Part shown: positions 28,845 through 37,391 of the stretch, one piece after another
Layout of the letters: each line of letters opens with the position of its first letter
Position numbering within the stretch: position 1 is the stretch's first letter
NCBI RefSeq assembly: GCF_014267175.1
Contig: NZ_JACMTR010000002.1
Location: 1,624,001-1,688,000, forward strand
DNA from: Pseudonocardia sp. C8
Lineage (GTDB): Bacteria; Actinomycetota; Actinomycetes; Mycobacteriales; Pseudonocardiaceae
Reading direction: 5' to 3'
DNA length: 64,000 bases
Made by a program: the position numbers and the translations under genes
The notes under the pieces: generated by a model
What the model was told of the DNA's origin: nothing
Seen by the model: the letters and a program-made list of their open reading frames with translations, nothing else
Database searches by the model: none

Positions 28845-29657
28845 ATGCCCGACCCGCCCCCGCGGACAGCGCCGCCGCTGCCGCGCCCGCACCTGCTCCG
28901 GCAGCACTGGTGCGACGTCACGTTCCTGCACTGGGCCGTCCCACCGGGCAGCGTGCAGCACCTGCTCCCGCCCGGTACCGAGCCGGACGTCGCGGACGGG
29001 GCGACCTACGTCGGGCTGGTGCCGTTCCGGCTGGTCGGCACGGCGGCCGCCCACGGTCCCGCGATCCCGTGGGCCGGCACGTTCCTCGAGACGAACGTGC
29101 GCCTCTACACGGTCGACGGAACCGGCCGCCGTGGCGTCGTCTTCCTCAGCATGGACGCCGGGCGCGCCCTGCCCGTCGTCGTGGGGCGCGCCGTGTTCGG
29201 GCTGCCCTACCGGTGGTCGCGGATGCGGTTCCGCGCCGACGGGGACGTCCGCTCGTACACCACCCGGCTCCGCGGGCGCGGACCGGAGACCCGCAGCCGG
29301 GTGGTGGTCCGCCCGGCCGGGCCCGCGCCGGACGGGCCGCTGGAACGGTTCCTCACCGCACGCTGGGGCCTGCACGTGGCGCGGCTCGGCCGCACCTGGT
29401 ACCTCCCGAACAGCCACGCCCCCTGGCCGCTGCGGCGGGCAGAGCTGCTCGAGCTCGACGACGGCCTGCTCGCCGCGGCCGGCCTGGGTGACGTGGCGCG
29501 GCGGCCACCGGACCACGTGGCGTTCAGCGAGGGTGTCACGGCGACATTCGCTCCTCCGGCGCCCGTGAGTGGTGAGCGGTGCCAGGGCACTGCCAACCAC
29601 TCACGAGCGCCGGAGGGGCCGCCTGGTTCGGGCCCGGCCCGCCGGGGTACGGCGTGA
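28845..29657 (+). CDS. DUF2071 (YqjF-like) protein
   Basis: 270 residues with the DUF2071 hallmarks: LLRQHWCDVTFLHWAVPPGSV, LVPFRLVG, ETNVRLYTVDGTGRRGVVFLSMDAG and GLPYRWSRM. The family is a beta-rich acetoacetate-decarboxylase-like fold of unknown function (YqjF). The last ~40 residues are atypical because the reading frame runs through a strong hairpin (29554-29615) before reaching a stop, so the ancestral protein probably ended earlier. ATG 28845 is the first good start after the preceding stop. Confidence 0.85.
   Translation: MPDPPPRTAPPLPRPHLLRQHWCDVTFLHWAVPPGSVQHLLPPGTEPDVADGATYVGLVPFRLVGTAAAHGPAIPWAGTFLETNVRLYTVDGTGRRGVVFLSMDAGRALPVVVGRAVFGLPYRWSRMRFRADGDVRSYTTRLRGRGPETRSRVVVRPAGPAPDGPLERFLTARWGLHVARLGRTWYLPNSHAPWPLRRAELLELDDGLLAAAGLGDVARRPPDHVAFSEGVTATFAPPAPVSGERCQGTANHSRAPEGPPGSGPARRGTA
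29554..29615. repeat. Palindromic hairpin element, copy 2
   Basis: Arms CTCCGGCGCCCGTGAGTGGT (29554-29573) and ACCACTCACGAGCGCCGGAG (29596-29615) pair over 20 bp with one mismatch and a 22-nt loop. The GTGAGTGGT core is the same as at 1533-1578. It overlaps the 3' end of the DUF2071 gene and probably ends its transcript. Confidence 0.75.
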
Positions 29658-29729
29658 CCAGCACCCGTTCGCACGACCGGAGGCACCGTGAGGGAGACAT
29701 CGAGGAGCTCGTCGTGATCGAGGCGTCCC

Positions 29730-29933
29730 GTGCCGGCTGAACCGACCCGTGTGACCGTGACCGACGACGGGCCGCTCCTCGTCCACGGGCCGGTGGAGGT
29801 CGAGCTGCCCGACGGGCGCCGGGTCCGGTCCGACCGCCCGGTCACGGCCCTGTGCACCTGCCGGCGCACCCGGCGTCCGCCGTTCTGCGACACCAGCCAC
29901 CGCGCCCGGGTCCGAGAGGAGCGACGACCGTGA
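29730..29933 (+). CDS. CDGSH-type iron-sulfur protein
   Basis: 67 residues. The single metal motif is LCTCRRTRRPPFCDTSH: C42, C44, C53 and H57 match the C-x-C-x2-(S/T)-x3-P-x-C-D-x-(S/T)-H signature of CDGSH proteins, which hold a redox-active 2Fe-2S cluster with three Cys and one His ligand (mitoNEET family). N-terminal VTVTDDGPLLVHGPVEV is the usual beta lead-in. GTG 29730 is the start. Its stop overlaps the GTG of the diiron enzyme (GTGA), so it may serve as electron donor or cluster carrier for that enzyme. Confidence 0.9.
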   Translation: MPAEPTRVTVTDDGPLLVHGPVEVELPDGRRVRSDRPVTALCTCRRTRRPPFCDTSHRARVREERRP

Positions 29934-30967
29934 CCAGCACCGTGACCACCACCGGGCCGATCGCCCGGACCGGCCTCGCCCCGCTGCCGGGTGCGCGCGG
30001 CCCGCTGTCGGCGACGGTGCTCGCGCTCCTGTGGGGCGAGGACCCGCCGCCCGCCGATCCCGGCTCCGCGGACCCGTTCGGCGACGACCTGCACCTCGCC
30101 CTGCACTGCTGTTACGAGCTGCACTACCGCGGCTTCACCGGTGTCGACGACGACCGGGAGTGGGACCTGCGGCTGCTGGGGATGCGGCGGTCGCTGGAGG
30201 AGCGGTTCCTGGCCGCGCTGCGGGCCGAGGTGGCACCGGACGACGACGTCGCGGGCGCCGTCGACGCCCTGCTGGTCGAACCGGTGGGGCCCGGCGCCGA
30301 GCCCGGCGTCTCGCACCACCTCCAGCGCAGCGGGGAGTTCTGGCAGCTGCGCGAGTACGTCGTGCACCGCTCGATCTACCACCTGAAGGAGGCCGACCCG
30401 CAGGCGTGGGTGATTCCCCGGCTGCCGGTCGCGGCCAAGGCCGGGCTGGTCGGCGTCGAGCACGACGAGTACGGCGCGGGCGACCCGGACCGGACGCACG
30501 CGAACCTGTTCGCCGCCATGATGCGCGAGCTCGGCCTGTCCGACGGGTACGGCCACTACGTCGACGCGGTGCCCGCCGCCACGCTCGCCGAGGTCAACTT
30601 CATGTCGCTGTGCGGGCTGCGGCGCAGCCTGCGCGGCGCGCTGGTCGGCCAGTTCGCGCTGGTCGAGCTGACGTCGTCACCCGGATCTGCACGGCTGGTC
30701 CGCGGTATGCGCCGGCTCGGCTGCGGACCGGCCGCGGTCCGGTTCTACGACGAGCACGTCGAGGCCGACGCGGTGCACGAGCAGGTCGTCCGCCGCGGGG
30801 TGCTGGCCCCGCTGCTCGCCGACGAGCCCGGCCTCGCCGCGGATGTCGTGTTCGGGATCCGGGCGGCCGGCGTCCTCGGCGACCGGCTCGGTGCGGCGAT
30901 GCTCGACGCCTGGTCGGCCGGCCGGTCCAGCCTGCGCGTGCCGCTGCCGGACGGGCCCGGCCGGTGA
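29930..30967 (+). CDS. Heme-oxygenase-like diiron oxidase (iron-containing redox enzyme family)
   Basis: 345 residues of the Haem_oxygenas_2 type, an all-helical fold. Candidate metal ligands stand in FWQLREYVVHRSIYHLKEAD (E142, H146/H151), LVGVEHDEYG (E177, H178), DRTH (H190) and FYDEHVEADAVHEQV (H276, D280, H283). Known relatives (UndA, BesC, SznF central domain) use a labile Fe2 centre for oxidative cleavage, desaturation or N-oxygenation of small substrates. GTG 29930 and the following gene's GTG overlap stops by four bases, so the trio is one translational unit. Which residues bind iron and what is oxidised are unresolved. Confidence 0.85.
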   Translation: MTSTVTTTGPIARTGLAPLPGARGPLSATVLALLWGEDPPPADPGSADPFGDDLHLALHCCYELHYRGFTGVDDDREWDLRLLGMRRSLEERFLAALRAEVAPDDDVAGAVDALLVEPVGPGAEPGVSHHLQRSGEFWQLREYVVHRSIYHLKEADPQAWVIPRLPVAAKAGLVGVEHDEYGAGDPDRTHANLFAAMMRELGLSDGYGHYVDAVPAATLAEVNFMSLCGLRRSLRGALVGQFALVELTSSPGSARLVRGMRRLGCGPAAVRFYDEHVEADAVHEQVVRRGVLAPLLADEPGLAADVVFGIRAAGVLGDRLGAAMLDAWSAGRSSLRVPLPDGPGR

Positions 30968-31929
30968 ACGCCGGTCCGGTCGCGCTCGAGCACGGCGCCG
31001 TCGACGAGGCCGCCGAGCTGCGCGCCCGCCTCACCGAACCCGACCCGGGGATCCCGCCGTGGTTCGGCTACGACGCGCGCGGGTCGCAGCTGTTCGAGCA
31101 GATCACCGAGCTGCCGACGTACTACCTGACCCGGGTCGAGTGGGGCCTGCTGCGGCGCCACACCGACGACATCGCCCAGCGGCTGGGCTGCGCCCGGGTC
31201 GCCGAGCTGGGCTCGGGCAGCGGGAAGAAGACCCGGCTGCTCCTGGCGGCCTGCGCGCGGCGCCGGCCCACCACCTACCTGCCGGTCGACGTGAGCCGGG
31301 AGATGCTCGAGCACAGCGCCGCGCGGCTCGCCGGGATCCCCGGCCTGGCCGTGACCGGGCTGTGGGGTCGGTACGAGGCCGGCCTCGACCGGCTGCGCGA
31401 CGACGGCGGCGCGCCGCTGGCGGTGCTGTTCCTCGGCGCCAACATCGGCAACGCCACCCCGGCCGAGCGTGCCGCGCTGCTCGCCCGCGTCGCGGCCACC
31501 CTCCGCCCCGGCGACGCCCTGCTCGTCTCGGCCGACCTGCTCAAACCGGCGACGGTGTTCGAGACCTGCTACAACGACCCGCCCGGCCACACCGCGTTCG
31601 CGGAGTTCCGGCTCAACCACCTCACGCGGCTCGCGTGCCGCTTCGGGGAGGGCCGGGTCGACCTGACCGGCTTCCGGCCCGCCGCGCACTACGACGGCGC
31701 CGCCGAGGTCGTCGACGGCCGGCTGTGGGCCCGCCGCGACCAGCAAATCACCCTGCCGGGGCTCGGGCTGGACCTCGCGCTGCGCCGCGGCGACGGCCTC
31801 AACGTCGGCGTCTCCGCGAAGTTCGACCGGGACCGGTTCTGCCGGGAGGTCGCCTCGCACGGCCTGGCGAGCGAGGCCGAGTGGATCGACCACGACAACC
31901 GGTACGGGATCTTCCTGTTCCGCCGCTGA
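30964..31929 (+). CDS. EgtD-like amino acid N-methyltransferase with altered substrate pocket
   Basis: 321 residues, the same length as mycobacterial EgtD. It has the EgtD N-terminal motif WFGYDARGSQLFEQITELP and continues TYYLTR, SAM-binding ELGSGSGKKT (81-90), VDVSREML, FLGANIGN, and NVGVSAKF near the C-terminus. In EgtD, Met252 and Glu282 shape the histidine pocket; here the aligned residues are G252 and G282, while S284 is kept. The enzyme therefore probably trimethylates or methylates an amino acid other than histidine. No egtB, egtC or egtE gene is nearby. GTG 30964 overlaps the previous stop. Confidence 0.88.
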   Translation: MNAGPVALEHGAVDEAAELRARLTEPDPGIPPWFGYDARGSQLFEQITELPTYYLTRVEWGLLRRHTDDIAQRLGCARVAELGSGSGKKTRLLLAACARRRPTTYLPVDVSREMLEHSAARLAGIPGLAVTGLWGRYEAGLDRLRDDGGAPLAVLFLGANIGNATPAERAALLARVAATLRPGDALLVSADLLKPATVFETCYNDPPGHTAFAEFRLNHLTRLACRFGEGRVDLTGFRPAAHYDGAAEVVDGRLWARRDQQITLPGLGLDLALRRGDGLNVGVSAKFDRDRFCREVASHGLASEAEWIDHDNRYGIFLFRR

Positions 31930-32028: not shown

Positions 32029-32763
32029 TCACCTCCCGCCGTCCGCCTCGCTCCGATAGACACAGGCGAACCCTTCGATGTGCTCGCGCATCAGGGTGCT
32101 CGCACGATCGGCGTCACCGTCGAGGTAGGCCTCGACGATCTCGCGGTGCTCGTCGAGCTCCTTGATGCTCGTGTCGTATCGCTGCCACCCCTGCACGACG
32201 GCGAGCGTGAGCCGGTCGCCGTACGACGCGACGACGTCGATGATCTCCTGGTTGCCGCATTCCGCGATCAAGGCGCCGTGCAGGCGGCGGTTGGCCTGCG
32301 CCAGCGTGGGGTGGCGGGTGTGCTGGGCGACCTCCTCGATGCTGCGCATCGTCTCGCGAACGTGCCGGCGGCCTTCCTGCGTGCTGCGGGTGCATGCTCG
32401 CCCGATTGCCGTCGATTCCAGGATCGCCCGGATATCGAAGATGTTCTGCACGTCCTCGGAGGACAGGACGCGGACGCGCCAGGTGCGGAACGCGTCCGTG
32501 GTGATCAGGCCGCTGTGCGCGAGGAGTCGCAGCGCTTCCCGCACCGGTGTCTTCGACATGCCCAGTTGCTGCACGAGGTCGGCCTCGACGAGTGGAGCGC
32601 CCGGGAGTAGTGCTCCCTCGAGAATTGCGCTGCGCAACTGCTGCTCTGCCTTGTCCGCCAGCGGGACCCGCGTCGTTCCCGACCTCTTCGGGGCCCGGTC
32701 CCAACGCGGTGTGGCTTCCGCTCCTGCGACCTCTGCGCGACCGCCGTTGACACCGTCTGGCAT
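32029..32763 (-). CDS. GntR-family regulator, FCD subfamily
   Basis: 244 residues. An N-terminal tail of ~30 is followed by the GntR winged helix (LADKAEQQLRSAILEGALLPG, LVEADLVQQLGMSKTPVREALRLLAHSGLI) and a helical FCD effector domain with metal-type residues (D..RAILE, NRRLHGALIAECGN, HREIVEAYLDGDADRAS). FCD proteins sense small carboxylates or amino acids. It is divergent from the M24-TPP-MHS-dehydrogenase operon and 50 bp from it, so it most likely controls that operon through the site at 32781-32792. Confidence 0.9.
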   Translation of the reverse strand: MPDGVNGGRAEVAGAEATPRWDRAPKRSGTTRVPLADKAEQQLRSAILEGALLPGAPLVEADLVQQLGMSKTPVREALRLLAHSGLITTDAFRTWRVRVLSSEDVQNIFDIRAILESTAIGRACTRSTQEGRRHVRETMRSIEEVAQHTRHPTLAQANRRLHGALIAECGNQEIIDVVASYGDRLTLAVVQGWQRYDTSIKELDEHREIVEAYLDGDADRASTLMREHIEGFACVYRSEADGGR

Positions 32764-32780
32764 GGTGCGTACCTTTCGCG

Positions 32781-32792
32781 TATCAAATGATA
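32781..32792. promoter_or_regulatory. Candidate GntR operator TATC-N4-GATA
   Basis: TATCAAATGATA in the 50-bp divergent gap between the GntR gene and the next operon is an inverted TATC/GATA pair, like FCD-type operator sites. It is one of very few AT-rich patches in the region. Confidence 0.5.
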
Positions 32793-32813
32793 TACCGTTT
32801 GAGGAGCGGCCTG

Positions 32814-34418
32814 GTGAGACTGACTTCGAACCTCGACTCTCTGGATCAGCAGGGGTTGCGACCGCGCACCGAGCTCCTCAGTCCACACCTGCGTCGCGAT
32901 GCACTCCTGATGACCACCCCGCTCCTCGTCGAAGACGATACCAAATGGTGTCGTACGTGGCTCGTGCGTCACCAAGAGCGGGGTGCCATCGAGGCGTCGT
33001 CGGTCGACGTGGCCCACGTCGTGTTCCATGACCCATACATGACGTTGCGGCCCGAGCCCGACGAGGTCGCTCCCGACCTGGGCGCAGCCGTGGCCGGTCT
33101 GGTCGGTCGTGGACCGGTGGAGGTGGACCCGGAGCTGCCGCTCGCCCGCTACCGGGAGATTGCCCGCCACGTCGAGTTGTACGTGGGCGGGGACGTCGTG
33201 CGTCCGGCTGTCGCTGCGGGCTCGGTCGGGACGGGCGAGGTGTCCGAGACCGTGGCGCGGGCCGTGGCCCGGATCCGGCTGGCCGCAGCCGAGTTGATCG
33301 AGCAGACGCCGTCGCTGCGGCCGTTGGCGCCCTACCTCGAGGAGTGGTCGGCGGACACCCGCTTCACCGACCTCGACGAGGTGCTCGCGCGGACCGGCGC
33401 CGACGCCGTGCTCACCTCGTCCCCGATCGGTGTGGAGGAGTTGTGCGCGCTGCCCGGCCGGGATGGCAGCGCACTCTACCGGCGCGGCTCGGACTCGGTG
33501 GAGTACGGCCCGTCGGCGGCCGTGCTCGTCGAGGCTGCCGGTGTCCGCCGGGTTCTGGTCGAGGAGTGGGGCCTCGGGATCGGCGAGGCCGAGGAGCTGC
33601 AGCAGCTCGGCGTCACCCTGGTCGACGGTTCACACGCCATCGCCAAGTGGCGGGAGCGGCGCGATCACCAGTACCTCCCCGCCGTCGTCGTGGTCGCCCG
33701 GGCCACCGGGCACGCCCTCGACTCGGCCGTCGAGTTCGCACGTGACGCGGTCGCACGGGTTCGGCCGATCACCGAGAACGACGTCCGCGCGGCCTACCTC
33801 GATGCAGCGCACGCGTTCGCCGACAGCATCGGACTGACCGGTCACATCCACGAGTTCTTCACGAACTGCCACGCCGGGGACCGGTCGATCCATCCGTGCC
33901 TGGCCACCGACCATCCGGTCGGGCCCGGCACCACGTCGCTCAAGCTCGACGCCGGGCTCGCGGTCGTGGTCGACGGCCTCACCCTGGCCACCTCGGACGC
34001 GGCCCGTACCTTTGTCAGCGATCCCGATGCCGAGCGCGCCTACGAGATCCTGATCAGGATCGTGCGCAGCACGATCTCGGAGCAGATCACCGAGGGCGCC
34101 GTGTTCGCCGACGTTCACCGCCGGGTCGTGGATCAGCTGGTCGCCGAGCGCGACGGCCTCGTGAAGGCCGGCTTCTGGCCCGAACAGATCGATCTCGCCG
34201 GGCGGTACGCCCTGCGCAACGTCGGACATCTCATGGGCCGCCAGGAGTCGTTCTCCTCCGAGTTCCGGCCCGGTGACCGTGAGGTCGTGCGGGTCGGTGA
34301 CTTCGGCGCCTGCGAGATCCAGTGGCCGATCGGTGAGTACTCGATCGGCGCCGAGGACATGTGGCTGGTCCTCCCGAGCACCACCGTCAACCTGACCCAG
34401 CAGGGTGATGCGCCGTGA
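32814..34418 (+). CDS. M24 (pita-bread) metallopeptidase-fold protein, creatinase/aminopeptidase-like
   Basis: ~534 residues with a long N-terminal domain (~340) and a C-terminal pita-bread domain. The metal-ligand positions of M24 can be traced: LKLDAG (Asp), LATSDAARTF (Asp), LRNVGHLMGRQE (His), then GACEIQW and YSIGAEDMWLV (Glu pair). Members include aminopeptidase P, prolidase and creatinase; others are hydrolases for cyclic or N-methyl amides. The central GHGIG motif is altered to GHLMG, so specificity is uncertain. GTG 32814 follows GAGGAG; an ATG at 32787 lies inside the operator. Confidence 0.75.
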   Translation: MRLTSNLDSLDQQGLRPRTELLSPHLRRDALLMTTPLLVEDDTKWCRTWLVRHQERGAIEASSVDVAHVVFHDPYMTLRPEPDEVAPDLGAAVAGLVGRGPVEVDPELPLARYREIARHVELYVGGDVVRPAVAAGSVGTGEVSETVARAVARIRLAAAELIEQTPSLRPLAPYLEEWSADTRFTDLDEVLARTGADAVLTSSPIGVEELCALPGRDGSALYRRGSDSVEYGPSAAVLVEAAGVRRVLVEEWGLGIGEAEELQQLGVTLVDGSHAIAKWRERRDHQYLPAVVVVARATGHALDSAVEFARDAVARVRPITENDVRAAYLDAAHAFADSIGLTGHIHEFFTNCHAGDRSIHPCLATDHPVGPGTTSLKLDAGLAVVVDGLTLATSDAARTFVSDPDAERAYEILIRIVRSTISEQITEGAVFADVHRRVVDQLVAERDGLVKAGFWPEQIDLAGRYALRNVGHLMGRQESFSSEFRPGDREVVRVGDFGACEIQWPIGEYSIGAEDMWLVLPSTTVNLTQQGDAP

Positions 34419-36037
34419 GTTCACCCGAGCCGCACCGCTCGAGCCGCCCAGGTGGGCACGCGCTGGTCGAGCAGCTGGTCGCGCACGGTGTCACCCGGGC
34501 ATACGGCGTGCCGGGGGAGAGCTATCTCGCCGTGCTCGACGGGATGCACGAACACGGCGACCGGCTCTCCTTCGTCGCGACCCGCCAGGAAGGCGGCGCC
34601 GCGCTGATGGCGGCCGCACACGGTAGGCTGACCGGCCGTCCGGGGATCTGCATGGTCACCCGCGGGCCCGGCGCGACGAACGCCGCGATCGGGGTGCACG
34701 TCGCCGCCCAGGACGCCAGCCCGATGCTGCTGCTCGTGGGCCAGGTACCACGCCGGGAACGAGGCCGCCGGGCCTTCCAGGAGATCGACTACAGCGTGAT
34801 GTTCGGCGGGATCGCAAAGGCCGTCGTCGAGATCAACGAACCCGCGCGCGTGCCGGAGCTGACCTCGCGTGCGCTGACGTTGGCGACGTCCGGCGAGCCC
34901 GGTCCCGTCGTCGTCGTGCTGCCCGAGGACGTGGTGTCCGGCCCGACCTCGGCGCCGGTCCGGCCCGTGTCCGCCGTCGCCGACGCTGCGCCACGGGGCG
35001 AGGACGTGCGCCTCACCGTGGAGCTGCTCGAGTCGGCCCGGGCACCGGTCGTCGTCACCGGACGGTGTGGCTGGGACGCCGACACCACCGCCGCCGTGCG
35101 GGACTTCGCCGAGCGGTCGGCCGTCCCCCTGGTGACGGGGTTGCGGAACCAGGACACCGTCGACCCGGCGTCGCCGATGTTCGCCGGAACCCTCGGCCTG
35201 AACACGACGGCGGGGTTGCCCGAGCGGCTCGGTGCGGCGGATCTCGTGATCCTCCTCGGCAGCCGACCCGACGGACTCACCGCCCAGGCACTGGAGCCCG
35301 CGCTGCACGGGGCCCGGGTCGTCCACGTCTATCCTGGTGCGGACGACCTGGGTGTATCCGTTGCGGCCGACGTCGCCGTGGCCTGTTCGCCCGCGGCGTT
35401 CGTCGCCGCACTGCCCGAGCGGATCGAGCCCTGTGACGAACGGCGCCGGTGGGCGGACAGCCTGCGGTCGGCGTTCCACGAGGCCCACGACACCGTGCAC
35501 GCTCGCGATCCGGCCGCCGCGTTCATGCGGGTGTTCGACGAGCAGGTGGGTTCCGACGCCATCGTCAGCTGCGGTGCAGGCAACTACACGGCCTGGCCGC
35601 AGCGCTTCCACCGGTTCGGTGTCTACCCGTCCCAGCTCGCATCGACCAGCGGGGCGATGGGTTACGGCATCCCCGCAGCGATCGCCGCCGCGTTCGAGCA
35701 ACCCCACCGGGAGGTCGTGGCCTTCGCCGGGGACGGCTGTTTCCTGATGACCGGCCAGGAGCTGGCCACCATCACGCAGTACCAGCTGAACGTCCTCGTG
35801 ATCGTGGTCAACAACGGCCGCTACGGCACGATCCGCGACCACCAGGAACGGGTCTACCCCGGCCGGGTCAGCGGCACGGACCTGACCAACCCCGAGTTCG
35901 TCCCGCTCGCCGAGGCGTTCGGTGGCCTCGCCGCGCAGGTTCGCACGCCCGAAGAGCTCGCCGTCGCACTGACCAAGCTCCGCCAGGCCGACGGTCTACG
36001 ACTGATCGAGATCCGTACAGACAACCTTCCCAAATAG
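34415..36037 (+). CDS. Thiamine-diphosphate-dependent enzyme, acetolactate-synthase-like
   Basis: 540 residues in the three-domain layout of the POX/AHAS family. The catalytic glutamate is in ATRQEGGAALMAAAHGR, the central domain is ~200-330, and the ThDP motif is GDGCFLMTGQELATITQYQL with NN 28 residues later. Substrates of this family are 2-oxo acids, acyl acceptors or sulfoacetaldehyde. In this cluster it could decarboxylate or condense the oxo acid released by the neighbouring dehydrogenase. GTG 34415 overlaps the M24 stop (GTGA). True acetolactate synthase is unlikely because no small subunit or ilvC follows. Confidence 0.85.
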   Translation: MSSPEPHRSSRPGGHALVEQLVAHGVTRAYGVPGESYLAVLDGMHEHGDRLSFVATRQEGGAALMAAAHGRLTGRPGICMVTRGPGATNAAIGVHVAAQDASPMLLLVGQVPRRERGRRAFQEIDYSVMFGGIAKAVVEINEPARVPELTSRALTLATSGEPGPVVVVLPEDVVSGPTSAPVRPVSAVADAAPRGEDVRLTVELLESARAPVVVTGRCGWDADTTAAVRDFAERSAVPLVTGLRNQDTVDPASPMFAGTLGLNTTAGLPERLGAADLVILLGSRPDGLTAQALEPALHGARVVHVYPGADDLGVSVAADVAVACSPAAFVAALPERIEPCDERRRWADSLRSAFHEAHDTVHARDPAAAFMRVFDEQVGSDAIVSCGAGNYTAWPQRFHRFGVYPSQLASTSGAMGYGIPAAIAAAFEQPHREVVAFAGDGCFLMTGQELATITQYQLNVLVIVVNNGRYGTIRDHQERVYPGRVSGTDLTNPEFVPLAEAFGGLAAQVRTPEELAVALTKLRQADGLRLIEIRTDNLPK

Positions 36038-36077
36038 GCCGCCCCACGCAGGGGCAGTCGGTCACAACGAGGTGCCC

Positions 36078-37391
36078 ATGACCCAGGCAGATCACACCGT
36101 GCGCCATGACCACCACGCCGGAAGCAGCCCACGGCGAGTGGCCGCCGGTGCCGCCGTCGGCCAGTTCGTCGAATGGTACGACTACGGGATCTACGGCTTC
36201 CTCGCCGTCCCCATCGCCGCCACGTTCTTCGCCTCGCAGGATCCGACCACGGCCCTGCTGTCGACCTTCGCCGTCTTCGCCGTTCCCTTCGTTGCGCGAC
36301 CGTTCGGCGGTGTCCTCTGCGGGTACCTCGCGGACCGGTTCGGTCGGCAGAAGGTGCTCGTCGGGGTGCTGATGTTGATCTCGGCGGCCACCGTGCTCAT
36401 CGGGCTGCTCCCCGGGCTGGCAACCATCGGGATCGCGGCCCCGATCCTGCTGGTGTTGTTCCGGTTGATGCAGGGCGTCTCGGCCGGTGGCGAGATCGTG
36501 AGCGCGATGTCGTTCGTCGCCGAGCACGCGCCGCTCGGGAAGCGGGCGTTCTACATGTGCTGGGGCCAGACCGGCTCGTTCCTCGCCCTGCTCGCCGGAA
36601 ACCTTGCCGGCCTGGGCCTGACCGTGGCCCTCAGCGAGGAACAACTCCTGGCCTGGGGCTGGCGGATCCCGTTCCTGCTCGCCCTGCCGCTGGCGTTGAT
36701 CGGTATCTATCTTCGCCGTCGTCTCGACGAGTCCCCGGCCTTCCTCGCGGCCCTGAAGGCGGCGTCGGCCGAGCAGCGCCAGCCGCTACGCGCCTCGCTC
36801 GCGGTGCCCGCCGTGCGCAGGGCGATCATGCGGTGCGGGGCTCTCTCCCTGCTGAACAGCTCCGGCTACTACGCCCTGCTGACCTACATGCCGACCTACC
36901 TCAAGACCGAGCTCGGTCATTCCCAGGGGCAGGCATTCGCAGCGACGGGGACAGCGGTCGCGGTCCTGCTCGTGCTCATCCCGTTCGGCGCCGTGCTGGC
37001 CGACCGGATCGGACGGCGACCGGTCATCATCGGCGCCTCTCTCGCCGTGGCGTTGACGGCGGTCCCGGGGTTCCTCCTGCTGCGCCAGGGGGGCTTGTCG
37101 ATGGTCCTCGGGCTGACGATGATCGCCGCCGCGTTCGCCTTCTACACCGGTACGATCCACGCCGCATTGGCCGAGCTGTTCCCGACCAGCGTCCGGGTCA
37201 CCGCCTATTCGGTTGGCTACAATTTCTCGACCGCTGTCTTCGGCGGCGCGGCCCCGTTCCTCATGATCTACCTCATCGGTCTCACCGGGAGCTCGCTGAT
37301 CCCGGCTGTCTACATGGTCCTGACCGCACTCGGCACGGGAATTGCCGCGCTGAGCCTGGGCGAGACCCGGGCAGCCGAACTGCCCAATTAG
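36078..37391 (+). CDS. MHS-family MFS transporter (metabolite:H+ symporter)
   Basis: ~437 residues with twelve hydrophobic helices. It shows the MHS motifs GQFVEWYDYGIYGF in helix 1, RPFGGVLCGYLADRFGRQKV in loop 2-3, QGVSAGGEIVSAMSF and WGWRIPFLLALPLALIG in helix 6. Close MHS types carry osmolytes, dicarboxylates, aromatic acids or amino acid derivatives by proton symport. ATG 36078 follows CGAGGTG; a GTG at 36072 is also in frame. It is third in the operon, so it probably imports the compound that the enzymes degrade. Confidence 0.9.
   Translation: MTQADHTVRHDHHAGSSPRRVAAGAAVGQFVEWYDYGIYGFLAVPIAATFFASQDPTTALLSTFAVFAVPFVARPFGGVLCGYLADRFGRQKVLVGVLMLISAATVLIGLLPGLATIGIAAPILLVLFRLMQGVSAGGEIVSAMSFVAEHAPLGKRAFYMCWGQTGSFLALLAGNLAGLGLTVALSEEQLLAWGWRIPFLLALPLALIGIYLRRRLDESPAFLAALKAASAEQRQPLRASLAVPAVRRAIMRCGALSLLNSSGYYALLTYMPTYLKTELGHSQGQAFAATGTAVAVLLVLIPFGAVLADRIGRRPVIIGASLAVALTAVPGFLLLRQGGLSMVLGLTMIAAAFAFYTGTIHAALAELFPTSVRVTAYSVGYNFSTAVFGGAAPFLMIYLIGLTGSSLIPAVYMVLTALGTGIAALSLGETRAAELPN

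Follow-up and report, generated by a model that had tools for sequence, protein, structure and literature searches.

EgtD-like methyltransferases without the histidine-selecting residues are encoded with a heme-oxygenase-like diiron enzyme in Pseudonocardia

EgtD, the histidine Nalpha-methyltransferase of ergothioneine synthesis, serves as a model for how an enzyme chooses the amino acid that it turns into a betaine. According to an excerpt of one study (PMC8593015), Tyr56, Tyr206 and Ser284 of EgtD bind the carboxylate of the substrate, Asn166 binds the amino group, and Thr213 places a water molecule that binds the imidazole. A second family, the heme-oxygenase-like diiron enzymes (HDOs), is treated in a 2026 review (PMC13108848), the excerpted parts of which describe a metal-ligand set of three histidines and four carboxylates (3H/4C) for SznF, a protein that also carries a cupin domain, estimate this set for about a quarter of HDOs, class HrmI as 3H/3C, and count the tryptophan enzymes AetD and SktA among the family. 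Here, we analyse a stretch of 64,000 nucleotides from Pseudonocardia sp. C8 (contig NZ_JACMTR010000002.1, positions 1,624,001 to 1,688,000; hereafter, the window), in which the gene of an EgtD-like methyltransferase directly follows those of a CDGSH-type [2Fe-2S] protein and an HDO. The original prediction for this locus concerned the methyltransferase, and the operon context was missing from it. Taking residue comparisons and structural models together, we lean towards the view that the substrate of the methyltransferase is an amino acid different from histidine, methylated at its alpha-amino group in a pathway built around an N-oxygenase-type HDO.

The methyltransferase and its selectivity positions

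The methyltransferase gene (30964..31929, + strand; GTG start, stop at 31927-31929) encodes a protein of 321 amino acids that aligns with EgtD from end to end, as had been predicted. The Pfam family Methyltransf_33 covers residues 17-320 (268.9 bits), and all six solved sequences that match the protein are EgtD (query residues 16-318 or 23-318, E 2e-44 to 2.2e-41). The same relationship emerges from the AlphaFold model (mean pLDDT 94.2, input alignment of 58 sequences), which superposes on EgtD structures with TM scores of 0.88-0.91 at 31-34% identity; PDB 4pip, the EgtD-M252V,E282A variant, ranks 3, 4, 6 and 11 among its structural matches. With 228.4 bits against a cut-off of 290.9, the protein scores below the threshold of the EgtD equivalog model TIGR03438. 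Crude dN/dS values of 0.34, 0.38 and 0.51, obtained against three relatives, indicate that the gene is maintained by purifying selection.

HMMER and MAFFT both align Gly252 (codon 31717..31719, + strand) and Gly282 (codon 31807..31809, + strand) with the residues Met252 and Glu282 in EgtD from M. smegmatis, and because the two programs agree on this placement, equivalents of the Met/Glu pair elsewhere in the alignment are excluded. The double glycine on which the original prediction was built is thus real; it is, however, a trait of a whole clade and not peculiar to the window protein. Of 139 distinct aligned relatives, 138 have Gly and one has Ser at position 282; at position 252, 121 have Gly, 17 have Ala and one has Val. 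The EgtD-type sequences carry Glu282 in 52 of 52 cases, Met252 in 49 (Leu in the other three) and Asn217 in 47; these counts merge identical sequences and omit two divergent rows with long branches on the EgtD side, L121 and L127, and with divergent rows included Glu282 is found in 54 of 55 and Met252 in 51 of 55. The full alignment of 143 rows keeps duplicates, and 120 of its rows are the best 120 of 2126 matches, so more distant relatives may differ. The split between the clade and EgtD-type sequences received 100% Shimodaira-Hasegawa-like approximate likelihood-ratio (SH-aLRT) support in a tree of 30 versus 55 rows, for which the program warned of a contact between the clade and L121, a long branch, and again 100% in a tree of 60 versus 4 rows without L121. 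Where EgtD has Met252 and Glu282, the divergent Methyltransf_33 protein encoded at L121 (G307:C2:672000-678500) has Ile and Val.

All four residues that handle the amino and carboxyl groups in EgtD (Y56, N166, Y206 and S284) are present in the methyltransferase, and Y36, F44, Y53, N163, Y203 and S284 (EgtD Y39, F47, Y56, N166, Y206 and S284) are kept in 141-143 of the 143 rows. Other EgtD residues are replaced throughout the clade: N217R, D141R, F142Y and D207N are fixed in each of the 139 distinct rows, T163N is nearly fixed (132 of 139), and further changes exist. Asp141 and Phe142 of EgtD are presumably SAM (S-adenosylmethionine)-binding positions. The arginine that replaces Asn217 (Arg216; codon 31609..31611, + strand) is invariant across the aligned clade and lies four EgtD residues past Thr213; position 213 is variable in the clade, and MAFFT inserts two residues after it. 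Judged from the aligned residues, the side-chain pocket is short of one acid and one large residue relative to EgtD, and Arg216 may face it.

The original prediction also stated that no other ergothioneine gene lies nearby, and indeed tblastn searches of the window with the genome's own egtA, egtB and egtC gave no match below E 0.09. A second, canonical cluster, for which a check of the genome had been suggested, was found on the same contig about 1.6 Mb from the methyltransferase. Its EgtD (G000:C2:3246521-3247435, - strand) scores 369.2 bits, has Met and Glu at the selecting positions, and is accompanied on one strand by genes for EgtB (with FGE-sulfatase and DinB_2 domains), EgtC and EgtA, egtA and egtC being named by the look of their sequences and by gene order. 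Ergothioneine synthesis therefore has no need of the window gene. An intact clade member occurs in 21 Pseudonocardia genomes, and every one of them likewise contains a second match, whose identity of 35-41% is in the EgtD range. Since the selecting residues are gone, the backbone-binding residues are kept and a separate egtABCD cluster is present, the likeliest reading is that the enzyme uses something other than histidine, which agrees with this part of the original prediction; the 'bulkier aromatic' amino acid that it suggested is not established, given the arginine at EgtD position 217 and the N-oxygenase-type HDO context.

The operon and its partner genes

The CDGSH, HDO and methyltransferase genes follow one another in this order with no gaps, and GTGA stop/start overlaps occur at both joints; as read from these overlaps, the run is translationally coupled. 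The CDGSH gene (29730..29933, + strand, presumed start codon) encodes 67 amino acids, below the 80-residue limit of the open reading frame listing, and its product belongs to the zf-CDGSH family by profile score (59.8 bits against a cut-off of 29.5) and by its Cys-X-Cys ... Cys-Asp-X-Ser-His motif (CTCRRTRRPPFCDTSH). The HDO gene (29930..30967, + strand, 345 amino acids) presumably starts at the GTG that overlaps the CDGSH stop codon. In the sets of relatives, a complete HemK2/MTQ2-like methyltransferase gene comes first, and two of its products score above the TIGR00537 cut-off. Only the last codons of this gene persist in the window, as a 3' remnant (29702..29740, + strand) whose DNA similarity to P. 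parietis begins at 29702, and the best HemK2 match elsewhere in the genome reaches 54 bits, with 44% across a portion of the gene. The remnant is immediately preceded by a DUF2071 gene (region 29657-29740). Downstream of the operon, at 32029-37391, an opposite-strand GntR/FCD regulator, an M24 peptidase-like protein, a thiamine-diphosphate enzyme and an MFS transporter are encoded in what looks like a separate catabolic cluster.

The HDO matches the PF14518 (Haem_oxygenas_2) profile with 194.1 bits and has the heme-oxygenase-like fold. The 18 best PDB matches of its model (pLDDT 91.0) are all HrmI, SznF or RohS, each of these an N-oxygenase, at 18-21% identity, and AetD is not among the 50 listed structural matches. 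Residues E154, E180, H190, E246, H276, D280 and H283 align with SznF E189, E215, H225, E281, H311, D315 and H318, which we take to be the metal ligands of SznF. The HDO thus has the three histidines and four carboxylates, extra Glu included, of a 3H/4C enzyme. These seven positions are invariant in all 73 rows (72 distinct) of an alignment that leaves out the short L021, as does the HDO tree, and in all 41 rows of a smaller earlier set, from which 15 loci were left out (mostly duplicates or partial copies, together with two distinct and complete ones, L012 and L024, that the larger set includes). Since HrmI is classed as 3H/3C, the 3H/4C set alone does not define N-oxygenases; the HrmI stretch aligned to the window HDO stops short of the extra-Glu position. 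No cupin domain was found in the window HDO by profile search. By analogy with its structural neighbours, to which its identity is low, the HDO is likely to perform N-oxygenation. Selenocysteine or read-through in the HDO, raised by '1 TGA' flags, was rejected: of six flagged genomes checked, two had a stop, close to the C terminus of the matched region, and the remaining four lacked one.

Distribution of the gene set

Genes for the HDO are present (E up to 1e-50) in 149 of 296 genomes of the class, and the HemK2-CDGSH-HDO set is common: among the 29 best-scoring other HDO loci, searched with 1.5 kb flanks, 27 have the CDGSH gene and 23 also the HemK2 gene. The methyltransferase was found in five of the 296 genomes, namely Pseudonocardia sp. 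C8 and four of one other genus, each time adjoining an HDO gene; at least four further genomes of that other genus are without it. Within Pseudonocardia, the methyltransferase is encoded in 21 of 62 genomes, 20 of which also have the HDO, at a distance of 1.5 kb or less in 17. The HDO itself (E up to 1e-60) occurs in 53 of the 62, including 33 of the 41 genomes without the methyltransferase; G024 and G341 are near copies with identical scores in these counts. A scan of genome contigs, whose 14 intact loci are partly from the same species as the 21 genomes, placed the HDO near the methyltransferase in 11 (the exceptions being L010, L013 and L016). The methyltransferase is thus an addition to the HemK2-CDGSH-HDO set, and since the HDO is the commoner gene and occurs without the methyltransferase in the other genus too, it works without it. 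In two Pseudonocardia species (L010 and L013), the methyltransferase gene lies apart from the HDO set and immediately follows a gene for a LacI-type regulator; the LacI-type profile match comes from L010, and the L013 protein clusters with that of L010.

The pairing is not confined to one arrangement. On a plasmid of Streptomyces sp. NBC_01237, the order is methyltransferase, HemK2, CDGSH, with the HDO gene convergent. The HDO of this plasmid belongs to a different HDO lineage, and trees put its methyltransferase inside the clade, paired with that of Embleya hyalina; the pairing was therefore made or remade separately. Other gene orders are found in L015 and G370. Mapped on the HDO tree, the presence of the methyltransferase requires at least six changes, four of which are forced by well-supported branches. 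In one genome (G001, in which L017 and L147 lie; L017 and G001 are one genome), the methyltransferase is a deleted remnant and the matches to HemK2, CDGSH and HDO are nearly full-length. In G002 (L146), the matches to all four genes are in pieces, and an assembly error is possible.

Sets of HemK2, CDGSH and HDO genes without an EgtD-like gene are widespread in actinomycetes (L043-L071, L149-L152 and L153-L192), and on plasmids they lie near sigma-factor, CsbD or gas-vesicle genes. A Kitasatospora plasmid (L151, 5881-9008) encodes a YbdK-type carboxylate-amine ligase and a dimethylargininase before the HDO, on the same strand. Neither proved to be a regular companion. A link to arginine, with methylarginine as the substrate, was dropped when tblastn found dimethylargininase in only one of 61 loci, and the YbdK-type ligase, in five of 61, is too rare for a conserved partner. 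Clustering of the genes around the 61 loci gave no partner nearly as common as HemK2, with the proviso that some HDO, HemK2 and short CDGSH genes escaped the simple gene caller.

Possible substrates and comparison with known systems

In the pathway that we favour, the EgtD-like enzyme, presumably active, would methylate the alpha-amino group of a non-histidine amino acid, probably up to three times to give a betaine, and the HDO would N-oxygenate a nitrogen of the amino-acid substrate, the two enzymes sharing a substrate or product. The CDGSH protein may pass electrons to the HDO. Enzymes of the HemK2 family methylate planar side-chain nitrogens, and the HemK2-like enzyme, where present, might do the same here. 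With Glu282 lost and Arg216 gained, the pocket would have room for a larger side chain, one that is negatively charged or offers hydrogen-bond acceptors; an N-oxygenated side chain suits both changes, whereas an indole suits the two glycines alone. A more tentative extension, which we regard as possible rather than probable, is that the HemK2-like enzyme, the CDGSH protein, the 3H/4C HDO and the specificity-switched EgtD jointly make an N-oxygenated, alpha-N-trimethylated amino acid. If so, this would be an undescribed actinobacterial pathway to a betaine parallel to ergothioneine and chemically different from it, possibly a metal chelator or a stress metabolite.

Several observations weigh against the favoured reading. 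The HDO gene occurs far more often than that of its proposed partner (149 against five of 296 genomes in the class, 53 against 21 of 62 in the genus). Four of the 21 Pseudonocardia genomes do not have the methyltransferase near the HDO: in G008 and G015 the two genes are on different contigs, with the HemK2-CDGSH-HDO set present in each; in the fragmented assembly G349 the methyltransferase is on another contig than the intact HDO set; and in G360 no HDO was found, a HemK2 gene directly precedes the methyltransferase, and the CDGSH gene is cut by the contig end. In L016, whose methyltransferase is the only one with Val252 and Ser282, the 6 kb upstream contain no HDO gene, and the contig stops a short way downstream. 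In the window itself, the HemK2-like gene was lost, and the orientation of Arg216 towards the pocket is read from an alignment only. A literature search, with most subscription journals and preprints outside its coverage, found no described activity for any member of the clade. The same search returned apparently no paper treating the clade or the gene set, and none joining EgtD or CDGSH/methyltransferase with heme oxygenase-like enzymes, CDGSH with N-oxygenase, or EgtD with hypaphorine; the HemK2-CDGSH-HDO set looks uncharacterised.

An aromatic substrate is possible, and the closest competitor is a natural betaine synthase for Trp, Tyr or Phe, with the HDO acting on the same aromatic amino acid or separately. 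Two glycines would make room for an indole or phenol, both positions are small throughout the clade, PDB 4pip shows the M252V,E282A variant binding tryptophan, and the HDO family has tryptophan enzymes in AetD and SktA (excerpt of PMC13108848). The invariant arginine at EgtD position 217, T163N and D207N would all be superfluous in an indole pocket. Moreover, the HDO fold is nearest to N-oxygenases for lysine, methylarginine and 2-aminoimidazole, and AetD, as noted, is absent from its listed matches, so that we judge the aromatic alternative unlikely. Much less can be said for a divergent histidine Nalpha-methyltransferase that still makes hercynine and is redundant with the canonical EgtD. 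Fold and backbone-binding residues are those of EgtD, and many relatives bear the source name L-histidine N(alpha)-methyltransferase, which is probably a misannotation; Glu282 is gone in all 139 aligned clade rows, the score is below the EgtD equivalog cut-off, the 21 Pseudonocardia genomes that encode the methyltransferase all have a second, EgtD-like gene, and egtA, egtB and egtC are absent from the window. We consider retained histidine methylation very improbable.

The two enzymes could also share an operon and serve separate pathways, having come together by descent or for regulatory convenience, for example as stress genes. Most pairs come from one genus, HDO alone is widespread, sigma-factor and other stress genes lie near some HDO sets, and three genomes have the methyltransferase on another contig than the HDO. 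Recurrence of the pairing in another genus and on the Streptomyces plasmid, there with a different HDO lineage and gene order, and the further gene orders in L015 and G370 speak against mere co-residence, which seems improbable, if less so than retained histidine methylation. As a last alternative, the methyltransferase could modify a peptide or protein at its N-terminal amino group: the usual neighbouring gene belongs to the HemK2 family, whose members modify proteins, and an enlarged pocket could admit a peptide. The carboxylate-binding residues (EgtD Y56, Y206 and S284) are kept in 141-143 of 143 rows, so a free amino acid suits the enzyme better, and this alternative is the least probable of all. 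Methylation of a free, non-histidine amino acid next to an N-oxygenating HDO remains the reading that we prefer. A natural clade that lacks the selecting residues of EgtD and keeps the rest makes the substrate rule derived from engineered EgtD testable on natural enzymes, and the operon offers an entry point to the widespread HDO set, whose chemistry is likely N-oxygenation.

Set beside the described systems, the methyltransferase shares with EgtD (M. smegmatis 4pim and 4uy6; M. tuberculosis 7scf; TIGR03438) the full-length fold, the glycine-rich SAM motif and the residues for the alpha-amino and carboxyl groups, and differs from it by M252G, E282G, N217R, T163N, D141R, F142Y and D207N and by its location outside an egt cluster. 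The small side chains at both selecting positions recall PDB 4pip ('EgtD-M252V,E282A in complex with tryptophan and SAH'), which, in contrast, is a laboratory mutant with otherwise EgtD residues and no arginine at position 217. The EasF family (TIGR03439), which we take to comprise fungal indole N-methyltransferases, has a related profile, but the protein's score of 130.1 bits is under the cut-off of 205.55. The HDO resembles SznF, HrmI and RohS in fold and has the SznF-type 3H/4C ligand positions; it differs from them in sequence (18-21% identity) and in its coupling with an EgtD-like methyltransferase and a CDGSH protein.

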